Shown here piece by piece: positions 1 to 53,745 of a DNA stretch of 53,745 nucleotides. A model generated the notes under the pieces. It saw only the letters and a list, made by a program, of their open reading frames with translations. It did no database searches and had not been told where the DNA came from. Numbering within the stretch: the first letter of the stretch is position 1; each line of letters opens with the position of its first letter. Position numbers and translations under genes: made by a program. The stretch is from a virus, in IMG/VR virus record IMGVR_UViG_3300029258_002378, positions 1-53,745 of that record; one strand, 5' to 3'.

Positions 1-144
1 AAAAGACTTTCAATTGCTCTCGCAATTTTTTAGTCAGTTTGAATGATTCGATTTCTCCCTGAGTGGGCACTGCACTGTCAAATAAGTGGACGGCTGTTTG
101 ATCCTTTGGGTTGGGGACAGTAACTCCTCGAAATCTGTATGATG
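1..144. repeat. Direct terminal repeat, left copy
   Basis: Bases 1-144 are identical to 53602-53745. The primase-helicase gene reads in frame through the joined ends, so the molecule is circular or circularly permuted. A 144-bp exact overlap could be an assembler overlap of a circular contig or a real short terminal repeat; the sequence alone cannot tell. It lies inside a coding gene, which favours the artefact explanation. Confidence 0.95.
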
Positions 145-1543
145 TGTTACTTTTCAATCCATGCCCAGTAAAGTATGCGTTTCGCATTACGTATTGAGCG
201 GCGTGACTTTCAATAGTGGGAATGAGAATCAATTGCTCAACGTTGAACACTTTAACGGGTTCAACCTGCACGTTACACCCCGGTTTTGCGTTAAATCCCG
301 CAAGCTTTGCAAGGATCTTGTCGCGTGTTGTCCTCGGAATATCGATAAGTTCGAGAATACGTTCATTTGATGGGTCTAATGTAATCTCTCTAAACTCAGC
401 ATCAACTTCGGCCAGGGGACAGTCATCACAAGATTTATTACATGAAACGCGGTACGTTTCCGGTAAGTCATATGGTGCAGCTGACTTTCCCGATACAATT
501 GCATCAACTTCAATTCTTTTTCCAAACGTTGATGCTTCGCTAGCCATATCAAGTCGGACATGGACAAGCTCTTTGTTTACTTCTGTATTCTCGGGGTTTT
601 CAACAAGTAATGATGCACGGTGAATCCGTGTTAACCACCCCCCGGGATTTTGCATCTGGGGTTTGTTGTGAATCCAATCGCCAACGTCTTTACCGTACCG
701 TTTCGGAACCACTAATTTCTTAACGATGCCGGCAATGTCTCGTAATTCTCGAAATACTTTGGATTGCCCCTCCCGTCCCGCTTTGTCGTTATCATAGACG
801 AGTGTAACTTCAAGCCCCCGAAATTCGTTGTTGTATTGAGATGGCCATGATCGTGCACCCGCCGTGGATGTAACGGTGGGAATTCCCATCGATATAAGTG
901 CAAGTGCATCCCACTCCCCCTCACAGATGATAACATATCCCTCCTCTTTTGCATCAATCATTGCCCCGTATGGATACAGATGGGGAGGAGATCCGAATTT
1001 ACGTTTTTCCTGGGGGTCAGTATGGTTTATCATCTTGGGGAATTTCGGATCACCTCCCGCCAAATACAGTCGAGCATTGACAATGAGACCGTACTCATTG
1101 ATAACGGGGAAAACGAATCGCCGACCATTCCACCCAAGACGAAAACGTTTGATTGCTTCAATAGTTAAGTCTCTGTTGTGCAGCGCGTATCGTAATGCCA
1201 TCGGTGTATTGAGTAAAGCAGTATGCCACGCTTTTATTTTAGTGGGGGATATAATTGGCTGAATGTAGCGTACAAATAACTCGATGGCTGCCTGTTTCAG
1301 AGATAATCCTTCAACTTGGGCATGGAACGAAACAATCGATTTCCCCCCTTGCTCACATCCATGACAATACCATGCACCAGTTTTTGGATTAACATGCAAA
1401 CTTGGTGTTTTCTTATCATCGTGCAGTGGACATAACACACGGGGTTCAGTACTATCGTCAATCCATCGAATCTCTGGGAATGTATCGGTGTAATATTGCT
1501 TTGGATCAACAGTTGACTTTACATGGTGCACAAGTGAGGGCAT
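1..1543 (-). CDS. Primase-helicase, N-terminal part: CHC2 zinc finger, TOPRIM and MCM-like N-domain (runs off left edge)
   Basis: This is the first 514 codons of a 952-residue protein that continues in frame at 53601 down to 52286. I read it on the minus strand from ATG at 1541-1543. A CHC2-type zinc-binding domain has C38, H41, C60 and C63. A TOPRIM domain follows, with the glutamate in CEGEWDA (about residue 208) and the metal-binding DND (251-253) followed by KAG. These are the catalytic marks of a DnaG/T7-gp4-type primase that makes RNA primers. Residues about 290-490 look like an OB-fold with a small cysteine cluster (NKSCDDCPLAE), as in MCM N-terminal domains. The helicase half is described at 52286-53745. 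Start choice: the domain begins soon after this ATG and a purine-rich stretch precedes it. Confidence 0.9.
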   Translation of the reverse strand, partial: MPSLVHHVKSTVDPKQYYTDTFPEIRWIDDSTEPRVLCPLHDDKKTPSLHVNPKTGAWYCHGCEQGGKSIVSFHAQVEGLSLKQAAIELFVRYIQPIISPTKIKAWHTALLNTPMALRYALHNRDLTIEAIKRFRLGWNGRRFVFPVINEYGLIVNARLYLAGGDPKFPKMINHTDPQEKRKFGSPPHLYPYGAMIDAKEEGYVIICEGEWDALALISMGIPTVTSTAGARSWPSQYNNEFRGLEVTLVYDNDKAGREGQSKVFRELRDIAGIVKKLVVPKRYGKDVGDWIHNKPQMQNPGGWLTRIHRASLLVENPENTEVNKELVHVRLDMASEASTFGKRIEVDAIVSGKSAAPYDLPETYRVSCNKSCDDCPLAEVDAEFREITLDPSNERILELIDIPRTTRDKILAKLAGFNAKPGCNVQVEPVKVFNVEQLILIPTIESHAAQYVMRNAYFTGHGLKSNTSYRFRGVTVPNPKDQTAVHLFDSAVPTQGEIESFKLTKKLREQLKVF

Positions 1544-1634: not shown

Positions 1635-2603
1635 TCACTTGGTCTTTGCCTTGCACTCCTTGATAAGCGTCAGTACTTTGTCAAACGACCCGGCGACTTC
1701 GAGATGTTCAGCAATGTCACAGAGCAAGTCTACATAGGACTCGTAGTCGTAGGGATCGAACTCATGCGATGTGGCGAGTGTCTTGATCGCCTTCTTCTGG
1801 GAAGCGTTCAAGTCATCATCGGTAAACGAGACTTCTACGGTGCCGTCACCGCCGTCACCCTCGTCTTCCTCTTCGTCTTCGCCGTCATCGCCCCCACTTT
1901 CCTCCTCTTCGCCCTCTTCGACTTTCAGATCGTCGATGGGGTATTCGCCTTCGTCGCCGTCATCAAACGCGACGCTGACAGTTCCTTCCTTATCGTTAAT
2001 CCCGTTGATCTCGCCAGTGTAGTCGGCTCCGTCGATTTCAACAACGCAGCGATGACCAATTTCCCAGCCATCCTCTTCGCCGTCTTCCTCTTCGTTTTCG
2101 CTGTCATCACTCCAATCTTCGAGATCCTCGGCATCAACGTCATCGCTGTCAAGCGCTCGGTTAAAGTAGACGTTCTGAATGTCCGAGTCGCCCTTTGTGC
2201 GAGCAGTTACTTCGGCAAATGTGCCAATGACCTCCTCTTCGAGCATGTCGGGAATGTCGGTCGCTTTTTCCGGCCAGTCGATGCCGAGTCGTGCGAGTCC
2301 GCCCCTGAACCACCCGAGATTCGTCTCATCTTCCATACCGTCGTGCTTGAACAGCATTCGCCCTTTGTGTTCGCCACTGACGATCTTCATCTGCCATGAA
2401 CACTGGAAACGGCCCGATGATTTGCTGTGATTAAGTACTGCGGCAGTAATCTGAACTTGGTAGCGTCCATCGGGGATGTCTCCAAATGACGATTCCTCGA
2501 CATCACCCCAGACGCCTTCGAGTTCCTCGAGCGACGACATTACGTCCACTGTTCCGTGCTCGTCGCCCTTTTTCACTGCCTTTTTTCGTGCTTTCTTGGC
2601 CAT
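1635..2603 (-). CDS. Phage single-stranded DNA-binding protein (DUF669-like) with an inserted Tudor/SH3-like domain
   Basis: The protein is 322 residues, starting at ATG 2601-2603 behind a GGAG ribosome binding site. Residues about 40-155 match the pattern of DUF669-type phage SSBs: a DGRYQVQI strand, then a long OB-like region with GRMLFKHDGM. Residues about 180-228 form a separate Tudor/SH3-like module (GHRCVVEIDGADYTGEI, then VAFDDGDEGEYPIDDL) flanked by very acidic linkers. A short C-terminal domain (260-322) follows. Acidic tails are common in SSBs that recruit partners, but here the acid runs are internal. It sits directly downstream of the Sak4-like ATPase, a pairing known in phages where SSB stimulates Sak4 annealing. 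Function as SSB is inferred from family resemblance and neighbours. Confidence 0.75.
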   Translation of the reverse strand: MAKKARKKAVKKGDEHGTVDVMSSLEELEGVWGDVEESSFGDIPDGRYQVQITAAVLNHSKSSGRFQCSWQMKIVSGEHKGRMLFKHDGMEDETNLGWFRGGLARLGIDWPEKATDIPDMLEEEVIGTFAEVTARTKGDSDIQNVYFNRALDSDDVDAEDLEDWSDDSENEEEDGEEDGWEIGHRCVVEIDGADYTGEINGINDKEGTVSVAFDDGDEGEYPIDDLKVEEGEEEESGGDDGEDEEEDEGDGGDGTVEVSFTDDDLNASQKKAIKTLATSHEFDPYDYESYVDLLCDIAEHLEVAGSFDKVLTLIKECKAKTK

Positions 2604-3369
2604 TAGGATTGGCTCCTTCAAACGTTTGAATGAACTTAGCGCCATCGAGTAATTCACGTTCCGAGCGACGCCTACTCGTTACGCGATCCTTTGCATAGAG
2701 ACTTTCACTTGGATTAGTTATGAGTACACGTACCTCCTGGCGTTTGCCACCAACTTTAATTGACTTAAATCCACAATATCCGATCAAATCACAGAGGGGA
2801 ATGAGCACATTCCATGCTGTTTTCGATAACGCCGGCATTGTTCGCTCGAGTTGTATAGATTTCGTGCGAACTGTTTTTATTGTTTCGTGGGCAATAAACA
2901 CAACACCAAGGTCAAGTTTCAGAAGCAATTGGATATATGCGTGCATGGTTTTCCGAAACGCCGCCCACCCTTTACCGTATTCCGCATCGGACAATGCTTC
3001 AATTCCGAGTTGATCGCATACATGATCTTCACAGATATTTGCAAAGTCATCGACATGGTCAATAGCGATCATGTTATATGGTTTACATGCACCCGGCTTC
3101 GTCAATGCTCGTGCCACTTTCATAAAATCCTCAAACTTGTGACACTCAACTCGCATCGCTGAAACGAATCGTGTTCCCCTGTCTGTTGATAGGAACAGCA
3201 CCCGCCCCAAATCTTTAACGAATGTCGTTTTGCCTACGCCTGGTGGACCATAGAACATCGTAATGTAATCGGTTATCGATGTCGCTACGAACGATGGTTC
3301 TGTGGGTAATTTGAATCCACTAGGCTTTACTCCCCTTTTCTTTGCAGTTATTTTCTTTCGTGGCGGCAT
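2503..3369 (-). CDS. Sak4-like RecA-fold ATPase (AAA_24), single-strand annealing recombinase candidate
   Basis: The protein is 288 residues. A Walker A motif (YGPPGVGKTTF) lies near residue 40 and a Walker B strand (MIAIDHVDDF) near residue 100. A RecA-like sensor stretch (GVVFIAHE) is near residue 150. This is the AAA_24/Sak4 architecture, a minimal RecA core that promotes annealing of complementary single strands with the phage SSB. The start overlaps the upstream stop as TAATG. The C-terminus is unusually long and basic. Its last 34 codons overlap the start of the SSB gene (2503-2603), so the tail may be an extension or the result of a lost stop codon. Neighbours are the SSB, a Cas4-like nuclease and an SF2 helicase, together forming a recombination module. 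Confidence 0.8.
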   Translation of the reverse strand: MPPRKKITAKKRGVKPSGFKLPTEPSFVATSITDYITMFYGPPGVGKTTFVKDLGRVLFLSTDRGTRFVSAMRVECHKFEDFMKVARALTKPGACKPYNMIAIDHVDDFANICEDHVCDQLGIEALSDAEYGKGWAAFRKTMHAYIQLLLKLDLGVVFIAHETIKTVRTKSIQLERTMPALSKTAWNVLIPLCDLIGYCGFKSIKVGGKRQEVRVLITNPSESLYAKDRVTSRRRSERELLDGAKFIQTFEGANPNGQESTKKGSEKGRRARNSGRNVVARGTRRRLG

Positions 3370-3677
3370 TATTTGGCCCTTCGCTTTCGGATAATGGGTT
3401 CAGCAATTAACTGACGCGGTAAGAAAATGCCAACAATCGCTTTCTGGCGACGGAAGGCAACGAATCGAATTTGAATCTGCATTCCACTAATGCTGAACAT
3501 GACAGCTTCACGGAGGAGAATCGTCTCGGATCGCTTGTGCAGCGATAACCATACAGTGATATCCGTACGATCATATCCGTTATACATCCCCAGCACTTTA
3601 ATGATGCAGTAGGGAAGGTTATCGTTGTTCTTTGCTTTTACGATAACTCGATCACCGATGGTCATTGGGCGAATCAT
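3369..3677 (-). CDS. Small hypothetical protein, possible SH3-like fold
   Basis: The protein is 102 residues, starting at ATG 3675-3677, which overlaps the nuclease stop as ATGA; a GGAA stretch lies just upstream. The N-terminus (MTIGDRVIVKAKNN) has the start of an SH3/Tudor-like barrel, followed by alternating beta-strand-like hydrophobics and a strongly basic C-terminus (IIRKRRAK). I do not recognise a family. It is translationally coupled to the Cas4-like nuclease upstream and the Sak4-like ATPase downstream (TAATG), so a role in the same recombination step is a reasonable inference. Confidence 0.7.
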   Translation of the reverse strand: MIRPMTIGDRVIVKAKNNDNLPYCIIKVLGMYNGYDRTDITVWLSLHKRSETILLREAVMFSISGMQIQIRFVAFRRQKAIVGIFLPRQLIAEPIIRKRRAK

Positions 3678-4738
3678 GCTTCCATTACTTCCTCGTAGTC
3701 GCCGCTCAACTCTTCGTGCCAATCGCTATGTTGCTCGAACAACATACCCGTCCCACGATCAAGACCCGTCGTACATACCTCGAGGTACGGACACGTCCTG
3801 AAAAACGCAGAGCATTCGGCATCATCTGGTCCCCACGATCGGGGATCAAGCGGATCACTTCCGTTGATAATCGCCATGAACTCAGCATGTGTTTGTCGCA
3901 CTTCGTACTCGAACGCATCGATGTCTGATTTGTTGAATTTCAACGGCTGCCTGAAGAAATAGAAGTCAGGACGTGCTTCATAATCTTCAGCAATGCGAGC
4001 ATTGAAGGCATCTGCTGTTTCTCCGGATTTTCGACGCAAGCTGCATTTACGGACGACATCATACAATACTTCATTAACACGAAGTCCAAGACCTTGTGTT
4101 GCGCCGAATACGTAAGAACGAACTTGCGTATCCATTGGCAATCGAGTAATGTATGCCTCACTGATTTTCCTTGCTGTCTTGTGTTCCACAACTGTGTAGC
4201 ATTTTGCTTGTGGCTTAAGCAGCGTCACAAGGTCGATTTTGCCGGCGTAATCGAAGTCACCCATATCAACACGGAACTCGACTTCGACTAACTTGCGATT
4301 GATCGTCCAAATCCTGCGATCATCAGCATATGTGTGAGCATAGCCAAATAGCATTCCGTACAGCGCTTGGATTTCGGCGGATAATTTTTCAAAGTCATCG
4401 GGATTGTAAAGTGCCGATTGCTCGCGTGCTTCTGTCCATGCGGGATCGATGCGCCGCCGTGCAATACGTGTCATCCTTGCACGATTGCTACTGTACCAAT
4501 CCCCTATACACCAGTGAAACAAACCGCCAATGAGAAGTGCATTATCGGGGATACGCTTTCGCAATCCCATTACGTACTTCCAGAAGAACTTACGCTTACA
4601 TCGCCGAAACAATTTGATGGCACTTGATGTCCAGCAGATTCGTTTCGGCAATACGGGCGATTTGAACTGATGCTCACCAATCAATTGTCGAAGTTTGAGA
4701 GTTCGAGACACGTTTTTGCTCCAGTAAAGCGGAAACAT
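3674..4738 (-). CDS. PD-(D/E)XK nuclease, Cas4/RecB-like with probable iron-sulfur cluster
   Basis: The protein is 354 residues. An early cysteine (LFRRCKRKFFWKYV, about residue 48) and three near the C-terminus (ECSAFFRTCPYLEVC) give the four-cysteine 4Fe-4S arrangement of Cas4/AddB-type nucleases. The catalytic core is visible as GGLFHWCIGDWY, then YAGKIDLV (the motif Asp), then VVEHKTA (the E-x-K). Such enzymes resect DNA ends 5' to 3' to supply single strands for annealing, which fits its position beside Sak4 and SSB. No convincing Shine-Dalgarno precedes the first ATG, so a start 15-25 codons further in is possible. The gene ends in an ATGA overlap with the next. Confidence 0.8.
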   Translation of the reverse strand: MFPLYWSKNVSRTLKLRQLIGEHQFKSPVLPKRICWTSSAIKLFRRCKRKFFWKYVMGLRKRIPDNALLIGGLFHWCIGDWYSSNRARMTRIARRRIDPAWTEAREQSALYNPDDFEKLSAEIQALYGMLFGYAHTYADDRRIWTINRKLVEVEFRVDMGDFDYAGKIDLVTLLKPQAKCYTVVEHKTARKISEAYITRLPMDTQVRSYVFGATQGLGLRVNEVLYDVVRKCSLRRKSGETADAFNARIAEDYEARPDFYFFRQPLKFNKSDIDAFEYEVRQTHAEFMAIINGSDPLDPRSWGPDDAECSAFFRTCPYLEVCTTGLDRGTGMLFEQHSDWHEELSGDYEEVMEA

Positions 4739-4772: not shown

Positions 4773-6152
4773 TCATTTTAGAATCTCGCGAATACGGTGT
4801 CCATTTTTCAGTTGATCAAGTATGAAGGTGGCAATTGACATCTTATTGCCAATGCACTCTAATACTTTTTCATCCACTGATCCCTCCGTGATAAGGTCGA
4901 CATACGTAATAGCCTTGTGTCGTTCAGATCCGATTCGACGTGTTCTTCGCATTGACTGCTGTCGAGATACTACTTTGTGTGAATTGCTATAATACACGGC
5001 AGAATCAGCGACAACTAATTCATTCATGCCCACACCCGAATCAACTTGTCCGATGAACAGACGTACTGTAGGATCGTCTCTAAAGCGTATACGAGCGTTC
5101 TCTTTCTCTCGACGCTTCGATCCCATGAATTGCACAGTGGAAATCCCCCTATTTTGTGCAATTCGAGCAATACGAACGATTTCCGCAGTAAATGAACACC
5201 AGATTACAATTTTTGGTTTGATCCCCAGATAATAGGGGTTTTCGAGAAGGTCAAATAGTACATCCAATTTCGGGCATGGGAATTCATGGGTATCGTGATT
5301 CTCATCGTACAGAAATCCCGATGCGACTTGTCTCAATTTCGCAACTTGAGTGACAATGTAGTCGACTTCAATAATACTCCCCCCATTAAGCACTGTTTCA
5401 AACTCCGTAAGAATCTCCTCGTAGTGAATTCGCTGCGTCCGATGCATTGGTGCACTCTTACGATAGCGTCGTATAGGGGGCAGTGTAAGAACATCATCTT
5501 CATGCACATGGAACGATATTGCTGGGAGTTTTGAAGCAATCTCATCCTTCGCCTTTTTTCGTGGATACCAGCCGGGACCTGATTGTAAATAGTAACGTTG
5601 TTTAAAATACCATTGGGAGTTGCCAAACGTTTGACCGTTATCGATGAATAACGCTTGGGAGAATACATCCATCACTTCGTTTGTGATGGGTGAACCAGTC
5701 AATGCTAACCGACGTTTAATGTGGCGTGTTGCACGTATGACTGCTTTCGTTCGTTTCGATTCCCACCGCTTTATCATATGAGATTCATCGGCAATTACGG
5801 TATTGAACGGTGAGTGTTTAATCCACTCGTAAATGACCGAGTTCTTGACGAGATCATACGTAACAAAGAACCACTTGACACCAAAGTCGGACATTGCATT
5901 AATTTGATTGAGGCGATGAGCGCCGCTTTGAATGAACTCCATTTGGTGCCGTTCGACGCCTTCTAACTTCAATTCCGTATTCCACGTCAAGAAATCATCA
6001 CGTCGGCAAATAACAAGGATGGGCCCAATCGCTGCACGTATCGCTACAAGCGTCTTGCCTGTTCCCGGTGCCATGAACAATCCCGCCTTACCGCCCTTTT
6101 TTCTCACGAATGTTAGCGCGTCTCTTTGATGTTGCTTTGCTTTTCGTGCCAT
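4773..6152 (-). CDS. SF2 (SNF2/DEAD-like) DNA helicase
   Basis: The protein is 459 residues with both helicase lobes. It opens with a Q-motif-like AKQHQRDALTF. Motif I is APGTGKT (about residues 28-34), motif II is IADESHMIK (DESH), and motif III is LALTGSP. The C-terminal lobe shows motif IV/V (FIGQVDSGVGMNE) and motif VI (QQSMRRTRRIGS), in the order of SNF2-like translocases. It probably remodels or unwinds phage DNA during recombination or replication restart. Its first 65 bases overlap the end of the preceding PLD-like gene. No strong ribosome binding site is seen, so translation may be coupled to that gene. Confidence 0.88.
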   Translation of the reverse strand: MARKAKQHQRDALTFVRKKGGKAGLFMAPGTGKTLVAIRAAIGPILVICRRDDFLTWNTELKLEGVERHQMEFIQSGAHRLNQINAMSDFGVKWFFVTYDLVKNSVIYEWIKHSPFNTVIADESHMIKRWESKRTKAVIRATRHIKRRLALTGSPITNEVMDVFSQALFIDNGQTFGNSQWYFKQRYYLQSGPGWYPRKKAKDEIASKLPAISFHVHEDDVLTLPPIRRYRKSAPMHRTQRIHYEEILTEFETVLNGGSIIEVDYIVTQVAKLRQVASGFLYDENHDTHEFPCPKLDVLFDLLENPYYLGIKPKIVIWCSFTAEIVRIARIAQNRGISTVQFMGSKRREKENARIRFRDDPTVRLFIGQVDSGVGMNELVVADSAVYYSNSHKVVSRQQSMRRTRRIGSERHKAITYVDLITEGSVDEKVLECIGNKMSIATFILDQLKNGHRIREILK

Positions 6153-6676: not shown

Positions 6677-7708
6677 CTATCCTTGTATCTTCGGCAGATA
6701 GTCACGGACGTGACTGATAATATTACGAATCTCAGCATCGGCATATTCACTGCAACGCATAGCAATAATGTGTTGCCATTGACTTAGTGTTGCACTGAAG
6801 ACAAGTTGTGTCGCCATTGCGTTTGGCAGTACGCCGCGGGCCGCACCGCGAGCTTCTTTCCGAGTATGGCCTTGCACTTCAAGTTGATTCGCTAGTCTCA
6901 TGTATAGCGACTGTGACGCTTCATTAATCGCAAGCGGACCATTGTCGTTCGCAACCGTGAAGTCGGCGTCGCCAAGCAGTGGATGCCAACACATCTCCGC
7001 GTCCGATTCGTCACAGTATCGTGTACTGCGTTGGGAAATTGCTGTCCAATCGCCGTGGCGTACAAGTTCATGGGAAAAACCACGTGATCCCTTGAACCAG
7101 AACGTGAACCAAATTTCACTCATCGCTTTCGGGGGAACGAGACGTGACCATTGTTGTATGTCAAGACGGAATTGCCCCTGTGGGGGATTGAGGATTACAC
7201 GTGGCGCAATCTTGTTCCCCCAGAATTGCAGATATGTTCCAATCACTTTTGCCTCTGAGGGCCATAACGTCGTCCGCTCTTCCCATTCGAGGATCGCACG
7301 CAGATTTACGGAGAAGCGTATACCGGCTTCCTCAATTGCAGTGACAAAAATACCTGGACGGTTAAGCAAACATGGAACGAACGCTGGCCATTGGTTGCTT
7401 TTCCCATGCAGTTGCAATGTGAAGTTTGCATGTTCGTAAATGGACAGGTGGCCAATGTCAAGTATGTGCTGATGAAACTCGGCTGAAGACCGCCCTTTAC
7501 CAATTGAATCGTAACATACTCGACCAGCGATTTCGGACACAATTTCAGCGGGTGTACCAATACATTGGTCATCACGAGGTTTTCCCATTTGTGGGGGACA
7601 GATTACTTCCTTGTCGATGTTCGATCCAATGGGGCAAACATCTTCATGGAGGGGTATTGCGTCCTCATTCTTGTGTTGATCAGTAATTAAGCCACTCATG
7701 TCGTTCAT
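6677..7708 (-). CDS. thyX: Flavin-dependent thymidylate synthase
   Basis: The protein is 343 residues. Hallmarks are GHLSIYEHANFTL, ELVRHGDWTAISQRSTRY in the place of the ThyX signature, and a C-terminal RCSEYADAEIR that matches the flavin/nucleotide-binding end of ThyX. It converts dUMP to dTMP using FAD and methylenetetrahydrofolate. The signature is atypical: the third position of RHR is Gly and an extra residue separates it from the SQxSTRY half. SQxSTRY-type variants are known in divergent ThyX proteins. An N-terminal extension of about 50 residues precedes the conserved part, so Met41 is an alternative start. The first ATG overlaps the upstream stop as ATGA. A second, ThyA-family enzyme lies at 48901-49701. 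Confidence 0.88.
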   Translation of the reverse strand: MNDMSGLITDQHKNEDAIPLHEDVCPIGSNIDKEVICPPQMGKPRDDQCIGTPAEIVSEIAGRVCYDSIGKGRSSAEFHQHILDIGHLSIYEHANFTLQLHGKSNQWPAFVPCLLNRPGIFVTAIEEAGIRFSVNLRAILEWEERTTLWPSEAKVIGTYLQFWGNKIAPRVILNPPQGQFRLDIQQWSRLVPPKAMSEIWFTFWFKGSRGFSHELVRHGDWTAISQRSTRYCDESDAEMCWHPLLGDADFTVANDNGPLAINEASQSLYMRLANQLEVQGHTRKEARGAARGVLPNAMATQLVFSATLSQWQHIIAMRCSEYADAEIRNIISHVRDYLPKIQG

Positions 7709-9768: not shown

Positions 9769-10073
9769 TTGTTTGACCGTTCCTTTCTTTTCCTTGATAT
9801 AACGCGAAGCATTTTCTTGCCGTCAATACCCATTACTTGTTCGAGTGCTCGGACGAGATCGGGGAATTCGTGGGGGTGCATATAGACTACGTGTTGTATC
9901 GCTTCGCACAACTGGGAGCGTGCTACGAAATTCATCTTGAGTTCGTCGATCTCAACAAGTTCCCATATGGCGTAATACAGCTGGTTCATGCCCCTGTAAT
10001 GCAGCTCTAGTCGCCTTTCGTAATCGATGGGGGAGAATTGTCGTGAGACTCGATGGAGGATTCGTGCTGACAT
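9705..10073 (-). CDS. Hypothetical protein
   Basis: The protein is 122 residues from ATG 10071-10073 behind an AAGGA site. It is mostly helical (YERRLELHYRGMNQLYYAIW, VRALEQVMGIDGKKMLRVI) and ends in a basic, Asn/Ser/Arg-rich tail. No recognised family. Its first 67 bases overlap the end of the upstream gene, and its tail overlaps the next gene by 64 bases. Long hydrophilic tails overlapping the next start recur in this operon. Confidence 0.65.
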   Translation of the reverse strand: MSARILHRVSRQFSPIDYERRLELHYRGMNQLYYAIWELVEIDELKMNFVARSQLCEAIQHVVYMHPHEFPDLVRALEQVMGIDGKKMLRVISRKRKERSNKWQMTTHRSRSTNDSNSRNAN

Positions 10074-43700: not shown

Positions 43701-43749
43701 ACGTATACTTCATGCTAATCGCTCAGTATGATACGTGAGCGATTGGTTG

Positions 43750-43838
43750 TTATGACTTCTTGGTCGTTGACTTCTTGGTCGTTGACTTCTTCGCCGTCTT
43801 CTTCGCCGTCGACTTCTTTGTCGTTGACTTCTTGGTCG
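43750..43838. repeat. 15-bp tandem repeats (GACTTCTTGGTCGTT family)
   Basis: Degenerate tandem copies of a 15-base unit encode KSTTK/KSTAK repeats at the C-terminus of the gene on the minus strand. The same unit recurs at 45450-45539, so the arrays could recombine. Confidence 0.85.
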
Positions 43839-44208
43839 TTGCACGAACACCGAGTCCCCCCGTATGTCCCCGACGACGAAGTGCACGACGAATCCGCTTC
43901 TTATCCTCGGGATCATCCGATGTCTTCAGCTCAGCGAGCAAATCCTTAACCTCCTTTTCAATCTCAGCCGGTGTCATTTCTTCGTGCAGTGAACGACGTC
44001 CCCGCTTCGAGATCGTCACATCACCGCGCTTCACTGCTGCGGCAGTGTACGTATGAGTTTCACCATCATCGAATTCGACAGTGATATTCCCCTTCGCTGT
44101 CTTGACGACTGAACCGCCGTACGTTTCACCGTCGCTCCACAGTGCATTGACGCGCTGTCCATCAGTGAATGAAACCGTGGCATTTCCGTTATTGTTACGA
44201 GTCGACAT
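43750..44208 (-). CDS. Tudor/SH3-domain protein with RGHTGGL motif and KSTTK histone-like tail
   Basis: The protein is 152 residues from ATG 44206-44208 behind AGGAG. Domain order: Tudor/SH3-like (about 12-58; DGQRVNALWSDGETYGGSV, then VEFDDGETHTYTAAAV); helical hairpin (about 85-119; AEIEKEVKDLLAELK, then KKRIRRALRRRGHTGGLG); then a tail of KSTTK/KSTAK repeats like histone H1. The combination implies DNA compaction or tethering. It is preceded by two adjacent inverted repeats and followed by a terminator, so it is probably a separately regulated monocistronic unit. Confidence 0.8.
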   Translation of the reverse strand: MSTRNNNGNATVSFTDGQRVNALWSDGETYGGSVVKTAKGNITVEFDDGETHTYTAAAVKRGDVTISKRGRRSLHEEMTPAEIEKEVKDLLAELKTSDDPEDKKRIRRALRRRGHTGGLGVRATTKKSTTKKSTAKKTAKKSTTKKSTTKKS

Positions 44209-45425: not shown

Positions 45426-46193
45426 TTATGCGGCGGGGCTACGTGTTTTTTTCTTGGTCGTTGACTTCTTGGTCGTTGACTTCTTGGTCGTTGACTTCTT
45501 GGTCGTTGACTTCTTCGCCGTCTTCTTCGCCGTCTTCTTTTGATCGCTGATGCGATATCCTTGCGCTCGCAGTCGAGCACGAATCTTCCTCTTCTCCGTT
45601 TGATCCTCTTCGTGGTCGAGCATGGCCAGCAATTGATCGATTGTATGCTCTGGCTGTCGACCGCCCGTCTTCTTCGTTGTTGTCTTCTTTGCTGTTTTCT
45701 TAGTTGTCTTCTTCTTGGCCATTTGTTCGTGTCCTTTCACGTTTGACCATTTAGAGAATGAGCGCTCAGATTTTCTGAGTCGACTGAAACGAGTACACTC
45801 GGCGTTGAATTCTCGAGCAGTTTTTGTTGACCGCTTTTTCAAGTCATCGAGTGTGGACAATCCTCGTTCAATGTTGGCAATGATTCGGTCTGCTTCCTCC
45901 TTATGCTTTCGTAATACGATCATTTCTTGTCGTAATCGATCGGCCGATTCCGAAGTGTTCTGTACTAGTCTGTGATACTGAGCTATTTGCTCTCGATTCC
46001 TTGGTTCAACTGGACGTCCAGGACGATACGGGTTTAGATCGAACTTGAACCCTTCGATACGCAAATCCTTAGTTGCCACCATTTTGTACAGTTTAGTACG
46101 TGTCTTCTTGTGTGCGGATTCAAGGTCGTCCCGTATCTTTGTGAGAGTGGTGATGAACTGCTTCGGTGTTTGTTGTCTCGGTGTGCGGGGCAT
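45426..46193 (-). CDS. Coiled-coil protein with RLRAQGY motif and KSTTK histone-like tail
   Basis: The protein is 255 residues. Residues about 10-150 form a charged helical/coiled-coil domain (TTLTKIRDDLESAHKKTRTK, RLRQEMIVLRKHKEEADRII). Then comes a Lys/Thr run (KKKTTKKTAKKTTTKK), the helical hairpin TIDQLLAMLDHEEDQTEKRK-IRARLRAQGY, and a long KSTTK tail. An in-frame ATG at 45720-45722 with AGGA upstream could start a separate basic protein of about 98 residues. The pieces match the 43750-44208 protein, pointing to shuffling of DNA-binding parts. Confidence 0.78.
   Translation of the reverse strand: MPRTPRQQTPKQFITTLTKIRDDLESAHKKTRTKLYKMVATKDLRIEGFKFDLNPYRPGRPVEPRNREQIAQYHRLVQNTSESADRLRQEMIVLRKHKEEADRIIANIERGLSTLDDLKKRSTKTAREFNAECTRFSRLRKSERSFSKWSNVKGHEQMAKKKTTKKTAKKTTTKKTGGRQPEHTIDQLLAMLDHEEDQTEKRKIRARLRAQGYRISDQKKTAKKTAKKSTTKKSTTKKSTTKKSTTKKKTRSPAA
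45450..45539. repeat. 15-bp tandem repeats encoding KSTTK
   Basis: Four near-identical copies of the GACTTCTTGGTCGTT unit, then degenerate CTTCTTCGCCGT units, encode the C-terminal tail. It is homologous in unit and order to the array at 43750-43838. Confidence 0.88.
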
Positions 46194-46505: not shown

Positions 46506-48518
46506 TTACGCTGCTCGCATGAAGCCATATTTTTTTGCTTTTTCCTTGTTCCCCCAGTGGGACCCATTAACCTCAACATCCGCAGTAATTGGGACAAAGA
46601 ATGAGTCGTAATCTTCCATAATATCAAGCACCAATTGTGGCACAATGTTTTCTTCATTGCGGGGAATCTCAAGAACAATCTCATCGTGGATGGTCTTGAT
46701 GATCTTTGATCGTAGTTTACGCTCTTTAAGCTCCTTCCAAATCGTGACCATTGCAACTTTGATCTGGTCGGCCGATGTCCCCTGACACATATAATTTAGA
46801 GCGGTGTATGCACGACTTAGACGGATATGATATCGACGTCCAAACGGATTGGTTACAAACCCCTTCTCTGCAAGGATTGCTTTGAGTTTATTCGTTGTTC
46901 GTCGTACTGATGGAAATGATCGATGATATGATGCAACTAGTTTGGATGCCTCTCGCTTTGTTGTTGGTAATCCCTTCCTTGTCAATGTTTCAGCTTGTGT
47001 GCCTGGACCTGACCCATAGATGATCCCAAAGTTTACCGCTTTTGCTCGTTTGCGTTGCTCTTTTGTAACCTCACGTTTTGGTTTGTTATATATTTCCGCA
47101 GCAACGGCGAGGTGGATATCATCTGCAATTGCTCGTGCCATTATCTCATCTTTAGCGAAGTGCACAAACATTTTCATTTCGACTTGCTCGTAATCGAAAT
47201 GCCAATTTCTACGTCCGTTGCGGGGGATGAAACATTCCCGAGGACCAAAGACACGTGGTACATTTTGCAAGTTGGGGCTTGAGGACGAGAATCGTCCTGT
47301 CATTGCTTCACTCTGATTGAATCGACAATGCAATATACCAATCTCTCTGCCGCTCGACGTAACATGCACATTTGTTGCTTCGTTAATAATGTGGTCGTAA
47401 TACGTAGAAACCATTTTCAACAATCGGCGACAATACAACACAAGTGGAGGTAATAATTCTCTCCGATTGAGTTTATGGTTTCGACGTACTGCATGTACGG
47501 CATTGTAGAATTTTCGACCACTCCATCCCTCCTCACTCGAATCACGAATAATCGATGCTAGCGGCTTACTAACATAGCGGATAATGGCGTACTCATCGAA
47601 ACTCCAATTGCCCCCTCCTGTCTTTGCACCACCCTTCTTTCCCTTCTTCGGTTTAGTCTTATATTTCAGAGGGATTCCAACTTTGTTGAACGCCGCTTCC
47701 ATTTGCAGTCGACTATTTGGATTGAATCGATCTGATATCTCAACTTCAATTTCCTCGCCCTTCCGCTTCTTTTTGACCTTGATGGGGAGAACGAGGCGAT
47801 CGAGTATTCTTTGCATGAGTTCAATATCGCGTTGTGCCTCCGTACGTAATTCCTTTGCTCGTGTTATGTCAACTTGCACACCATGATCTTCCATCTCGAT
47901 GCACACGTACATAAGCATAAGTTCGGTTTCAAGTAATTCCGGAGATGCTTTAACAACGCGCTGCCGTATCGCAAACCACAGTAGTAATGTCGTTTCAACA
48001 TCCCAGTAGACGCGCTTCTTTACTGATTCAATTGGTGCATCATCAAAGCCAAGTTTGAATCCCCGATTTTTCACTTTCGCTTTTGTGTTCTCTTTTCTCA
48101 ACCAATCGATAATCTCAAACTTATCAGCTGTCGATCGTCCTAGTAATCGATCACCAAGGAATGCTAGCTTGTGTGACGGCAACATGCCATTGTACAGCTT
48201 ACTAATGATGAGCGTACATTCGATCCTTGCTTTAGCGTTGTATATGTCAACGCCTTCTTGAGCAAACATTTTCAAATCAAACTTAGCATTGTGGAAGACA
48301 ATAGTAAGTGTGGAGTCATTGAACAACCGCTTTATCCATGTGATATTCGCCGATGTGTTCAGCATGAAACCCCGCTCACCCTTTTCCGTTATGTACGCCC
48401 AACAGAATATTCTATCGCCGTGATAAGGGTCGAGTCCTGTCGTTTCCGTATCAAGTGCAATGACTTTGCCTTTTAAGCAAGGTCCGCTTGACGCATCGCT
48501 ACAGTTTCGACTCCGCAA
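46506..48518 (-). CDS. Family A DNA polymerase with 3'-5' exonuclease domain
   Basis: About 670 residues. The exonuclease domain shows ALDTETTGLDPYHG (Exo I), FHNAKFDLKMF (Exo II) and YWDVETTLLLW (Exo III). The polymerase palm shows WHFDYEQVEMKMF (motif A), KRAKAVNFGIIYGSG (motif B) and KTIHDEIVLEIP (motif C). It replicates the phage genome with the primase-MCM protein. The start is unclear: TTG at 48516-48518 is used here. ATT at 48459-48461, with AAAAGG well placed over the upstream stop, is an attractive rare-start alternative. No ATG or GTG near the domain start fits. Confidence 0.93.
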   Translation of the reverse strand: MRSRNCSDASSGPCLKGKVIALDTETTGLDPYHGDRIFCWAYITEKGERGFMLNTSANITWIKRLFNDSTLTIVFHNAKFDLKMFAQEGVDIYNAKARIECTLIISKLYNGMLPSHKLAFLGDRLLGRSTADKFEIIDWLRKENTKAKVKNRGFKLGFDDAPIESVKKRVYWDVETTLLLWFAIRQRVVKASPELLETELMLMYVCIEMEDHGVQVDITRAKELRTEAQRDIELMQRILDRLVLPIKVKKKRKGEEIEVEISDRFNPNSRLQMEAAFNKVGIPLKYKTKPKKGKKGGAKTGGGNWSFDEYAIIRYVSKPLASIIRDSSEEGWSGRKFYNAVHAVRRNHKLNRRELLPPLVLYCRRLLKMVSTYYDHIINEATNVHVTSSGREIGILHCRFNQSEAMTGRFSSSSPNLQNVPRVFGPRECFIPRNGRRNWHFDYEQVEMKMFVHFAKDEIMARAIADDIHLAVAAEIYNKPKREVTKEQRKRAKAVNFGIIYGSGPGTQAETLTRKGLPTTKREASKLVASYHRSFPSVRRTTNKLKAILAEKGFVTNPFGRRYHIRLSRAYTALNYMCQGTSADQIKVAMVTIWKELKERKLRSKIIKTIHDEIVLEIPRNEENIVPQLVLDIMEDYDSFFVPITADVEVNGSHWGNKEKAKKYGFMRAA

Positions 48519-48901
48519 TTTCTTAGCACGTCTCCCCCGTCGCCGTTCCTGTACTCCGAAAGGAAGATGACCTTGCATATCCCCGCTTGGACGATTCGTT
48601 GAGCACACATTTTGCATGGGAACACCGTGGTGAACATTATCATTTCATTCTCGAATGAACGAAGGGCCAAGATTGCGTTTTCTTCGGCATGTAAACAACC
48701 ACAATTACCTTGTATGCCACTACAACTATCGTGACTGAGTCCCTTTGCTGGTCCATTGTATCCAATAGACAAGATTCGTTTCATGTCACCAGACGTAATG
48801 ACAGCTCCGACTCGGAGACGTTTACATAGTGAACGATTTGCCCACATGAGCGCTGTTTTCATGTGCAGCGATTCACGACTTGGTCTATGTGTACTTTGCA
48901 T
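48473..48901 (-). CDS. Deoxycytidylate deaminase
   Basis: The protein is 142 residues. The zinc site is seen as CLHAEENAIL (H-A-E) and FPCKMCAQRIV (PCxxC). The RVGAVITSGD and GYNGPAKGL stretches are typical of phage dCMP deaminases. It converts dCMP to dUMP, feeding thymidylate or modified-pyrimidine synthesis. It overlaps the upstream ThyA-like gene as TAATG. The extra cysteines (SCSGIQGNCGC) match the second zinc site found in T4-like enzymes. Confidence 0.92.
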   Translation of the reverse strand: MQSTHRPSRESLHMKTALMWANRSLCKRLRVGAVITSGDMKRILSIGYNGPAKGLSHDSCSGIQGNCGCLHAEENAILALRSFENEMIMFTTVFPCKMCAQRIVQAGICKVIFLSEYRNGDGGDVLRNCGVETVAMRQADLA

Positions 48902-49701
48902 TAAAAAATACCTCTTGCTTTCATATCTTTACGATATGCGTGCAGTGAACCAGCAAAATAGGTAAATGTCCCCATAGGAATATCACATGATTGAGCGAAG
49001 TAGTGTTGCAATCGTAATGCAAGTGCAATGTCTACTGGAAAGTGCACGAGGTAGTCGCATGAGCGCATTACGTAAATTAGATCAAGTCTTTTGTTCCGTC
49101 GCATAATTTGATAGAACATGGAACATGGGACACGTCCCCCACCACCCATATTGCACAAATCTCGTCCTTGCTGCACAATGTTTGCCGGTCCGTCTGGGGG
49201 TGTTACATCGAGTGCACAAATGTTTGAGTGAATCGTGATAATTCCCTGCCGAGTGTCAGGCTTTGACTTGAGTTCGGCAATGATAGATGGAAGTTGAGGC
49301 GTAATTCGTTCGCTATACGTGTAAGCGAATTGCCCCCCATGCATGAACTCATTCCACAACTCAGCACGTGCTTCCCATGCATTACCGGGATTGAGTTGTT
49401 CACCCGATACTCGATCACTAAATTCTTGTTCAATGTAATCCATTACTTGCTTGTACGTTGTCGCTGGGGCTCCCTTCAATTTGCCAGTAAGCACGTAGTT
49501 AACCATGACAGCAATGCCCGGATTATTCCATTGCCAATTTACAATCTTAAATGCATACCCCTGCATTTCGATTGTTTCGTAGTTGGGATCATCGTGAATG
49601 TCTTTGTCTTGCATAGTCTGTGGATGGACCCGAACGCCCATTTCCCACAGGTCACGCTCGACTTCACGAACTGCTTCAAGTGGTGTACTGTAGATTCTCA
49701 T
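48901..49701 (-). CDS. ThyA-family enzyme with Asp at the Asn position: candidate (d)CMP/pyrimidine hydroxymethylase
   Basis: The protein is 266 residues. The nucleophile is C193 in RVPCSMFYQIM. RSCDYL (about 213-218) and GSLHAYRKD (about 251-259) are the phosphate-binding and C-terminal signatures of the thymidylate synthase superfamily, and RQGIITI is the conserved Arg strand. At the position that is Asn in TS (PFNI), this protein reads FPVDI, so Asp224. Asp at this place is characteristic of dCMP hydroxymethylases such as T4 gp42. Since the phage has ThyX, this enzyme may make a modified nucleotide. Ordinary TS with a divergent site remains possible. Confidence 0.8.
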   Translation of the reverse strand: MRIYSTPLEAVREVERDLWEMGVRVHPQTMQDKDIHDDPNYETIEMQGYAFKIVNWQWNNPGIAVMVNYVLTGKLKGAPATTYKQVMDYIEQEFSDRVSGEQLNPGNAWEARAELWNEFMHGGQFAYTYSERITPQLPSIIAELKSKPDTRQGIITIHSNICALDVTPPDGPANIVQQGRDLCNMGGGGRVPCSMFYQIMRRNKRLDLIYVMRSCDYLVHFPVDIALALRLQHYFAQSCDIPMGTFTYFAGSLHAYRKDMKARGIF

Positions 49702-50286
49702 TTATTGCCTATCCTTTGTCCAGTTTTTTACCCATTCAAGTTGACGACGTAACACACGCCGTCCATTATGGCCACAGCGCATACAATACGCTGGGTGATA
49801 TCCAAATCTCATGTTAGTGCCATGAGGAAAGAGTAATGATTGATGAAACCAGCATGATCCACGAGTATAATCTTTACGTGAAAATCCAAGCGCATTGAAC
49901 GCAACGTTGCCCATAATAAGGACAGCACGTGGTCGGATGATATCCATTTCAGCAATGATGTACCGCCCGCACTTTGCAATCTCATTATCTGTGGGGTTTC
50001 GATTGTGGGGTGGACGGCATTTAACGACGTTGGTAATCCATACTTTGTCGAGGATTTGCAATTCTCGTAGTACATCGTTAAGTAATCGCCCACATTGCCC
50101 CGAAAACACTTTGCCTGTCAATGCTTCGTTTGCACCCGGCGCTTCACCGAGTAATACGACGTTAGCAAGAGGATTTCCCCGACCAACAATGCATACATGA
50201 TCGGATGAACGATGGAGAGTGCAATGCCGGCAACGTGGATTATGTACGCCGCGTATTTTCGCGAGTTGTCCTCGACGTCCAATCAT
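49702..50286 (-). CDS. Family 4-like uracil-DNA glycosylase with 4Fe-4S cluster
   Basis: The protein is 194 residues. Motif GEAPGANEALTGKVFSGQCG (about 47-66) and the C-terminal YHPAY (about 163-167) are the two active-site motifs. Cysteines at 19, 22, 90 and 106 match the four cluster ligands of family 4 enzymes. It would excise uracil, or in this genome context possibly another pyrimidine derivative. ATGA couples it to the gene upstream. A phage encoding a glycosylase beside dCMP deaminase and dUTPase-like genes is controlling uracil in its DNA. Confidence 0.9.
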   Translation of the reverse strand: MIGRRGQLAKIRGVHNPRCRHCTLHRSSDHVCIVGRGNPLANVVLLGEAPGANEALTGKVFSGQCGRLLNDVLRELQILDKVWITNVVKCRPPHNRNPTDNEIAKCGRYIIAEMDIIRPRAVLIMGNVAFNALGFSRKDYTRGSCWFHQSLLFPHGTNMRFGYHPAYCMRCGHNGRRVLRRQLEWVKNWTKDRQ

Positions 50287-51858: not shown

Positions 51859-52311
51859 CTATACTCCTTGTTTTGTGACGAGTTGGTAACCCAGCACACA
51901 GTATCCCAATAAGTCGAGCAATGTGTCGTGGATTGATTCGCCACATTCCTCATCTCGTAATTGCTGAGTCAAATTCGCAATGCGAACAACTTTTGAGTCA
52001 ATCCGAATAAACACTCCCAATACTCCCCATCGAAGAATTGGTGCACTCCCATATGCTGAGTGTTTTCGTAGTAAAAAATCAGCAAATGTGCCAATATCAA
52101 ACCCCTTTTTGTCCTTTAACATCGAAACTACGATTGCACCAAACGAAATGAAGAACTCTTGAGGATTATCGAACGTAACACCCTTATGGAATGTTCTGTT
52201 TATGCTATCTGTCATCTGGAATAGCACATAATTCCCCGTCACTGGGGGATTACGATCGAGCATTTGTTCAATGACCGGAATAATGTCATCCTTTGTTTCG
52301 ATTAGCAGCAT
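51859..52311 (-). CDS. Nucleotide modification-associated domain 1 (DUF1599) protein
   Basis: The protein is 150 residues behind AAGGAG. The C-terminal half, with FLLRKHSAYGSAPILRWGVL, then FIRIDSKVVRIANLTQQL, then ESIHDTLLDLLGYCVLGYQL, matches the DUF1599/Nmad1 pattern. This family was named for its association with phage DNA-base modification gene sets. Its reaction is not settled. It overlaps the end of the MCM-like helicase gene by 26 bases. Confidence 0.8.
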   Translation of the reverse strand: MLLIETKDDIIPVIEQMLDRNPPVTGNYVLFQMTDSINRTFHKGVTFDNPQEFFISFGAIVVSMLKDKKGFDIGTFADFLLRKHSAYGSAPILRWGVLGVFIRIDSKVVRIANLTQQLRDEECGESIHDTLLDLLGYCVLGYQLVTKQGV

Positions 52312-53745
52312 TGTGTTTTCTCCTTGAGTAGTTACGTAACCACATGACGAAATCTGGGTTTTTCATGTATCCCCGTCCATCATCACGACGCGCTAAGCAT
52401 CTAATCTGAACTAGCCCGCCAATTAAGTCTTTTGCAGTAATAATGTCACCAATAAAATCGCCGAGTGATTCAGGTGTGACATAACGACAATTAAGCAGTG
52501 CTTGCATAACTTTTTCTTTGCCCGTTGGTACCCACTGGTCAATGACTTTTTCAATCTCATCTGTTGTTGCCATTGTCGTTGACTGCTTGATGATTCGACT
52601 ATACGTATCGTATGCTAGACTTTGTTTTGCATACGCTTCTCGTAAAAACGAACAAGCATATCGAACATGACTTGCTTGAACGATAAGTACCTCTCCCGTT
52701 TTGTCTGAACTAAATGTACGTGCAGCAACAGCTGCTGCGATCTTTGCAATCTTTACTCGGATATTCTCTCCTTGTACGAGAGGAATTGTAGCCGAGTATT
52801 TGCTTCCAAAGCGTATAGCCGAATCAATCACTGTTCGTGTTGCTTCATTTGTGAATTTGACTTGGTCGGGTTTTCGACTCCACGCCCATAGCACAAGAGC
52901 ACGACACAATGAAATAGGGTATTTTTCTCCATCAGTAAGATCATCAGTGCATAAAGCATTAATAATCTCACTTGGCACTTCATCAGTGGCAACGCTTAAT
53001 ACAAAGTCGAATCGACTGATATCTTCGTTATTTCCCACAAGTTCACGAACTGCTTCTATACCCGTATTGTATGATCGTAATGGGCGTCCGCTTCGAGGAT
53101 TTGACAACCATATCAATCGAGTGTTTGCTTGTGTTGCTTCTTTGACGATCTTTGTAATTTCGGCAACACCTTCTGATCGTACTCGTGACATTCGGCCAAA
53201 GTCATTTGGATCCAATGCAGATGCTTCATCTATAACTACAAGTCGGTTGTTATTTAATGGGATAACACCCCATGTTATAAACCACCGCTTTGATACTTGC
53301 TGTACACCCCCAACAAGCCCAGCGAACGAGCAATTTTCACCTGATGCAACTTCGCCTAGTTTATAGAATCGACATAGACGTTCAGTAACATATCCTTTCC
53401 CGCATCTTGTATCTCCAATGACCAGCACATCGAGCATTCCTCGGGAGATTTCCTCACCGTTGAACTCAAACGCTGCAACGCTATGAAACACAAGATCAAC
53501 AGCAATGTGTAGATCAGGACGATACCGAATTTTTGTTACATGGCGTGATTGCCAATCTGCTATGTCGTTAAGATGTACGTTGATCTTACGTCGACCGGGC
53601 GAAAAGACTTTCAATTGCTCTCGCAATTTTTTAGTCAGTTTGAATGATTCGATTTCTCCCTGAGTGGGCACTGCACTGTCAAATAAGTGGACGGCTGTTT
53701 GATCCTTTGGGTTGGGGACAGTAACTCCTCGAAATCTGTATGATG
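52286..53745 (-). CDS. Primase-helicase, C-terminal part: MCM-like AAA+ helicase (runs off right edge)
   Basis: This continues, in frame through the repeat, the protein that starts at 1543. Numbering by the full protein: Walker A VIGDTRCGKG (about 577-584), the MCM-type NCSFAGLVGG segment, Walker B RLVVIDEASAL, sensor 1 LIWLSNPRSGR, and the arginine-finger stretch DISRFDFVLSV, which closely follows MCM 'LLSRFDLIF'. A lid (ALVLWAWSRKP and RFGSKYSAT) and a C-terminal winged-helix-like region follow. MCM proteins are hexameric replicative helicases of archaea and eukaryotes; phages carry some. Fused to a DnaG-type primase, it makes one replisome protein of 952 residues. Confidence 0.9.
   Translation of the reverse strand, partial: SYRFRGVTVPNPKDQTAVHLFDSAVPTQGEIESFKLTKKLREQLKVFSPGRRKINVHLNDIADWQSRHVTKIRYRPDLHIAVDLVFHSVAAFEFNGEEISRGMLDVLVIGDTRCGKGYVTERLCRFYKLGEVASGENCSFAGLVGGVQQVSKRWFITWGVIPLNNNRLVVIDEASALDPNDFGRMSRVRSEGVAEITKIVKEATQANTRLIWLSNPRSGRPLRSYNTGIEAVRELVGNNEDISRFDFVLSVATDEVPSEIINALCTDDLTDGEKYPISLCRALVLWAWSRKPDQVKFTNEATRTVIDSAIRFGSKYSATIPLVQGENIRVKIAKIAAAVAARTFSSDKTGEVLIVQASHVRYACSFLREAYAKQSLAYDTYSRIIKQSTTMATTDEIEKVIDQWVPTGKEKVMQALLNCRYVTPESLGDFIGDIITAKDLIGGLVQIRCLARRDDGRGYMKNPDFVMWLRNYSRRKHNAANRNKG
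53602..53745. repeat. Direct terminal repeat, right copy
   Basis: Identical to bases 1-144. Removing one copy closes the circle and joins the two halves of the primase-helicase gene. Confidence 0.95.

Follow-up and report, generated by a model that had tools for sequence, protein, structure and literature searches.

The window, that is, the whole stretch of 53,745 nt analyzed here (virus record IMGVR_UViG_3300029258_002378), carries across its two ends a single gene whose product joins a DnaG-type CHC2-TOPRIM primase to a complete MCM module, an assignment supported by sequence profiles, profile-profile comparison, and predicted fold. In our judgment (probability of roughly 0.85), it is a single-polypeptide primase-helicase of a tailed phage, in which an MCM hexamer would unwind the fork in the 3′-5′ direction and the N-terminal half would make primers. 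The gene parts, the domains, and the neighboring genes considered below are as follows:

1 to 1543, minus strand: 5′ part of the primase-MCM gene, from the ATG at 1543 through residue 514 to the first base of codon 515
52286 to 53601, minus strand: 3′ part of the primase-MCM gene, continuing across the junction of the circle (from 1 to 53601), with the stop codon at 52286-52288
1274 to 1438, minus strand: CHC2 zinc ribbon, residues 36-90, with predicted ligands C38, H41, C60, and C63 (Pfam PF01807, 1.3e-10)
668 to 937, minus strand: predicted TOPRIM primase domain, residues ~203-292, with E208, E210, D251, and D253 (Pfam PF13155)
14 to 580, minus strand: predicted MCM N-terminal (OB/zinc) tier, residues ~322-510, with Cys 368, 372, 375, and 423 (profile and fold match)
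52535 to 53557, minus strand: predicted MCM AAA+ core, residues ~530-870 (Pfam PF00493, AlphaFold/Foldseek, residue invariance)
52307 to 52507, minus strand: C-terminal winged-helix-like domain, residues ~880-946 (predicted helices and strands; aligns with the MCM C terminus)
1635 to 2657, minus strand: SSB-like protein (DUF669), directly upstream of the primase-MCM gene, syntenic with the relative L012
2503 to 3369, minus strand: Sak4-like RecA-fold annealing protein
3674 to 4738, minus strand: PD-(D/E)XK exonuclease
4773 to 6152, minus strand: SNF2/UvsW-type helicase
46506 to 48617, minus strand: phage family A DNA polymerase with 3′-5′ exonuclease (PolA)

Positions 1-144 of the window are identical to positions 53602-53745, and this exact 144-nt terminal repeat marks the contig as either circular or terminally redundant. 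Joining 1543..1 to 53601..52286 on the minus strand gives an open frame of 953 codons without interruption (952 amino acids and the stop codon), and the contig junction cuts the gene within codon 515. The domain order of the joined protein is CHC2 zinc ribbon, TOPRIM, hinge, and MCM module with N-tier, AAA+ core, and winged helix. An initial annotation of this DNA had proposed the 952-codon frame across the ends but placed the gene at 52286-53745, an interval that holds its C-terminal part and leaves out the remainder at 1-1543. The frame itself was borne out by the overlap of the ends and by the relative L012 (53% identity), in which the homologous gene is uninterrupted and forms one open frame matching window residues 1-942; over residues 401-650, which span the junction, identity is 36 to 78% per 50-residue block. 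Furthermore, the genes before it in L012 (UvsW, exonuclease, Sak4, and SSB) and after it (MazG, dUTPase, UDG, thymidylate synthase, dCMP deaminase, and PolA) have the same order and strand as on the respective window ends. Since relatives possess a full-length gene with the flanking order of both window ends, the joined gene is a real single gene. The contig ends do happen to cut the primase-MCM gene, and one might therefore suspect an assembly artefact, with ends that are not adjacent or with primase and MCM genes falsely joined. However, the exact overlap, the existence of full-length uninterrupted genes in numerous independent contigs as well as in cultured phages, and the flanking gene order that both L012 and L018 share with the window leave this explanation a negligible probability, and the separation of the ends that the initial annotation had named as a possible refutation did not occur. 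No near DNA match to the window was found among phages, and no tRNA was found in the window.

The MCM identity of the C-terminal part is indicated by several independent comparisons. Its AAA+ motifs comprise Walker A GDTRCGK (K583), Walker B IDE (E640), a presensor-1 hairpin EITKI (K665), sensor 1 SNP (N682), and the arginine finger SRFD (S710-R711-F712-D713). K583, E640, N682, R711, and D713 are invariant in all 76 TOPRIM relatives, and the presensor-1 lysine is kept in 63 of them. The MCM P-loop model PF00493 matched residues 561-719 (5.1e-8). It also matched in every one of 14 control genomes, among them bacteria possessing other AAA+ proteins, and for this reason we rejected the match as sole evidence for an MCM. 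Such cross-matching, seen weakly also with an unrelated AAA_5 ATPase of a Gordonia phage, would be compatible with a different helix-2-insert or SF3/D5 family (Mg-chelatase, MoxR, or D5) that merely resembles MCM. We nevertheless regard that as very improbable, given the following observations: (i) the C-half of the window protein itself, modeled with AlphaFold (pLDDT 93.7), had only MCM proteins among its best 50 PDB matches in Foldseek (best 1.6e-16); (ii) the family profile, compared with the PDB, retrieved only DnaG primases (N-half) and MCM proteins (C-half) among the 60 matches listed; (iii) hhalign against five archaeal-virus MCMs gave 99.2% and an E value of 2e-19 over 533 columns, starting at residue 328 and thus including the N-tier; and (iv) the Mg-chelatase-like control was far weaker (E 3e-5, 119 columns). 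A BFVD fold search was uninformative apart from one strong MCM-like match. The model of the full-length relative L014 (pLDDT 91, with a low-confidence hinge at 324-330) likewise had MCM proteins as all of its best 50 PDB matches, the TM score reaching 0.65 in an alignment of 548 columns to an MCM of 582 residues; because 548 columns exceed what the AAA+ part alone gives, this match takes in the N-tier. Both the MCM-like core with its SRFD arginine finger and the MCM-like N-terminal OB/zinc region, as first read from the sequence, were in this way corroborated, and the structure and profile check proposed at that time pointed to MCM, not to D5/SF3, RepA, or RuvB. Strand pairs at C-half model residues 145-158 and 193-205 were assigned as the helix-2-insert and presensor-1 hairpins from strand position relative to the motifs in the model, and Cys 368, 372, 375, and 423 are arranged as a predicted N-tier zinc site. 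Separately, in L018 (7992-10828) an apparent frameshift, either genuine or an error, splits the primase-MCM gene within the AAA+ core near positions 9950-9974.

The N-terminal half carries predicted DnaG-type primase domains. Besides the CHC2 match, Toprim_2 (PF13155) matched residues 205-289 (5.5e-8), all three Pfam matches (CHC2, Toprim_2, and MCM) being above the curated cut-off, and the PHROGs matches of this half were phage DNA primases. The window protein retains all four CHC2 ligands as well as E208, D251, and D253, so that the CHC2 and TOPRIM reading of the initial annotation agreed with Pfam and with the residues at the positions it had given. The relatives show that this set is not kept throughout. 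D251 and D253 are present in 76 of 76 TOPRIM relatives, whereas Glu 208 is replaced by Gly or Ala in 16 of the 76, all of which retain E210 (GGE or AGE in place of EGE, as in L008, L010, L030, L033, L051, L058, and others). In the closest relatives, L012, L013, L014, and L018, CHC2 zinc ligands are lost (Cys to Ser), while the TOPRIM DxD is retained. Because of these replacements and the degenerate zinc ribbons of the nearest kin, priming may not be conserved in all members of the family; for the window protein itself, primer synthesis is predicted.

The TOPRIM-MCM architecture is widespread. A single-sequence scan of viral contigs found no relatives, and an alignment was needed as the query; the alignment-based search retrieved relatives of the MCM part in 198 IMG/VR contigs, and GenBank phages contributed at least 50 records. 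At E 0.01, MCM and Toprim_2 were each detected in 44 of 51 aligned relatives and CHC2 in 35. The cultured carriers are phages of Bacillus, Weizmannia, Paenibacillus, Arthrobacter, and Microbacterium, and in Paenibacillus phage API480 the homologous protein, gp47 (105.39 kDa), has been detected by mass spectrometry (PMC6937236). Database product names of the relatives are "DNA primase," "DNA primase/helicase," or "DNA primase small subunit," without mention of MCM. The search for further TOPRIM-MCM proteins suggested at the outset was thus productive. It also modified the accompanying claim of an unusual replisome: the pairing of a bacterial-type TOPRIM primase with an MCM was confirmed, but the fusion is by no means singular, and a replisome is what we infer from it.

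The gene lies in a conserved replication neighborhood, in which the phage's own PolA and SSB belong to the same block; no match to DnaB_C (RecA-fold motor) was found in the window. Positions 48473-50286 and 6677-7708 of the window hold genes for a dCMP deaminase, a thymidylate-synthase homologue, a UDG-superfamily protein, and a second thymidylate-synthase-like protein, possibly a modified-base or nucleotide-pool module. Downstream of the primase-MCM gene in Weizmannia phage Youna2 and Bacillus phage BSP7 (L003 and L004), there are genes of the queuosine pathway (QueC, QueD, QueE, and FolE), which suggests deazaguanine DNA modification in these phages. Tandem repeats of 15 nt (TTCTTGGTCGTTGAC) are present at two sites of the window (43742-43854 and 45436-45548).

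The same phage MCM motor also occurs with an unrelated primase. In Bacillus phage vB_BboS-125 (the IMG/VR contig L105 is this phage itself), a PriS-type archaeo-eukaryotic primase (AEP; PF01896), which Pfam did not detect in the window protein, is joined to an MCM module that shows homology to that of the window over 618 columns (E 1e-101); from the shared architecture, this type would correspond to that of BcMCM. AEP-MCM proteins were also found in Paenibacillus and Brevibacillus genomes and in nine further IMG/VR contigs, and the one in a Fermentibacteria bin (L099:4635-8825) has a 347-residue LAGLIDADG intein exactly in Walker A (GDSGTGK / intein / S). At two loci, L081:8010-9869 and L093:2438-4351 (the latter from a Gracilibacteria bin), the MCM module stands without a primase; both retain SSB-Sak4 neighbors, and L081 has a PolA-UvsW-exonuclease-Sak4-SSB neighborhood like that of the primase-MCM gene. 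Because the AEP-MCM and MCM-alone forms are nested among the TOPRIM-MCMs in the tree, it appears that one phage MCM has had its primase exchanged. A single AEP-MCM clade was not rejected (AU p 0.43), and one and two acquisitions are both compatible with the data; the root rests on a very long outgroup branch, and the direction of primase replacement is what we infer. The broader proposition, i.e., a large lineage of bacterial phages with an MCM motor and an exchangeable primase, in which TOPRIM is common, AEP replaced it once or twice, and TOPRIM on the N-tier acts like Pol α-primase on the eukaryotic CMG, is a tentative one, to which we give slightly less than an even chance.

MCM rings move 3′-5′ along the leading-strand template, and their N-tier points to the fork. 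By analogy, the C-terminal two thirds of the window protein would form a hexamer around the leading-strand template and unwind the fork 3′-5′, while the N-terminal CHC2-TOPRIM half would make RNA primers. A short flexible hinge would tether the primase to the MCM N-tier, which would face the fork, with the lagging-strand template exiting beside its zinc fingers. In eukaryotes, Pol α-primase binds the MCM N-tier above the lagging-strand exit (PMC10501992), and the fused primase would thus occupy the place of Pol α-primase in the eukaryotic replisome, although it is a bacterial-type enzyme unrelated to the latter. The phage's PolA and SSB would complete the set, with no DnaB helicase encoded. 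A self-contained phage primosome acting beside its own PolA is the most likely role of the primase-MCM protein, and it is the simplest reading because PolA and SSB share the block and DnaB is absent from the genome. The MCM-alone relatives count against it. The main rival is that the fusion melts origins or restarts forks, with host DnaB unwinding processively. According to a review, BcMCM may act in restart (PMC4538821), and related helicases of mobile elements are thought to be initiators (PMC7581432); on the other side, the conserved block that holds the gene also encodes a PolA and an SSB of the phage, and a tethered primase would be most useful in elongation. We therefore consider the melting or restart role unlikely and favor the self-contained primosome.

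MCM is regarded as the replicative motor of archaea and eukaryotes and the TOPRIM protein DnaG as the bacterial primase, and the TOPRIM-MCM family joins a motor of the former type and a primase of the latter in one phage chain. Some of the phages concerned can be grown on laboratory bacteria. Known primase-MCM fusions bear archaeo-eukaryotic primases, and known TOPRIM fusions have RecA-fold motors; a description of a TOPRIM-MCM protein was not found in the open full-text literature that was searched. One motor with two unrelated primases amounts to a natural experiment on whether helicase-primase coupling is affected by which primase is attached, and the TOPRIM/AEP pair makes it testable whether a place on the N-tier, above the exit of the lagging strand, is required of the primase. 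The assignment would also correct the annotation of many phage genes named merely "DNA primase."

Among known systems, BcMCM of a Bacillus cereus prophage and its relatives likewise have a primase followed by an MCM in one polypeptide, but their primase is archaeo-eukaryotic (PriS fold), unrelated in fold to the predicted DnaG-type CHC2-TOPRIM of the window protein. The initial annotation was right that the primases of known MCM fusions are archaeo-eukaryotic, as in BcMCM, and this AEP-fused type has 3′-5′ helicase, primase, and polymerase activities (PMC4538821). Proteins of the T7 gp4/Twinkle type also fuse an N-terminal CHC2-TOPRIM primase to a hexameric helicase; the motor of T7 gp4, however, is RecA-fold (DnaB-like) and moves 5′-3′, whereas that of the window protein is a predicted AAA+ MCM expected to move 3′-5′. 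The MCMs of archaea and archaeal viruses (e.g., Halorubrum virus BJ1) share with the window protein the OB/zinc N-tier, the SRFD AAA+ core, and the C-terminal winged helix, but they have no fused primase, and a long tree branch separates them from the window family. SCCmec Cch is also an MCM-related 3′-5′ helicase of a bacterial mobile element (PMC7581432), but it is encoded by a separate gene without a TOPRIM primase, and with its Cch2 form a CCPol-MP pair makes the primer. The same TOPRIM-MCM architecture is found in Microbacterium Krampusvirus, Arthrobacter Wollypog, Bacillus BSP7/BSTP, Weizmannia Youna2, and Paenibacillus API480/SV21, and the full-length homologues of cultured phages share ~25-33% identity with the window protein.
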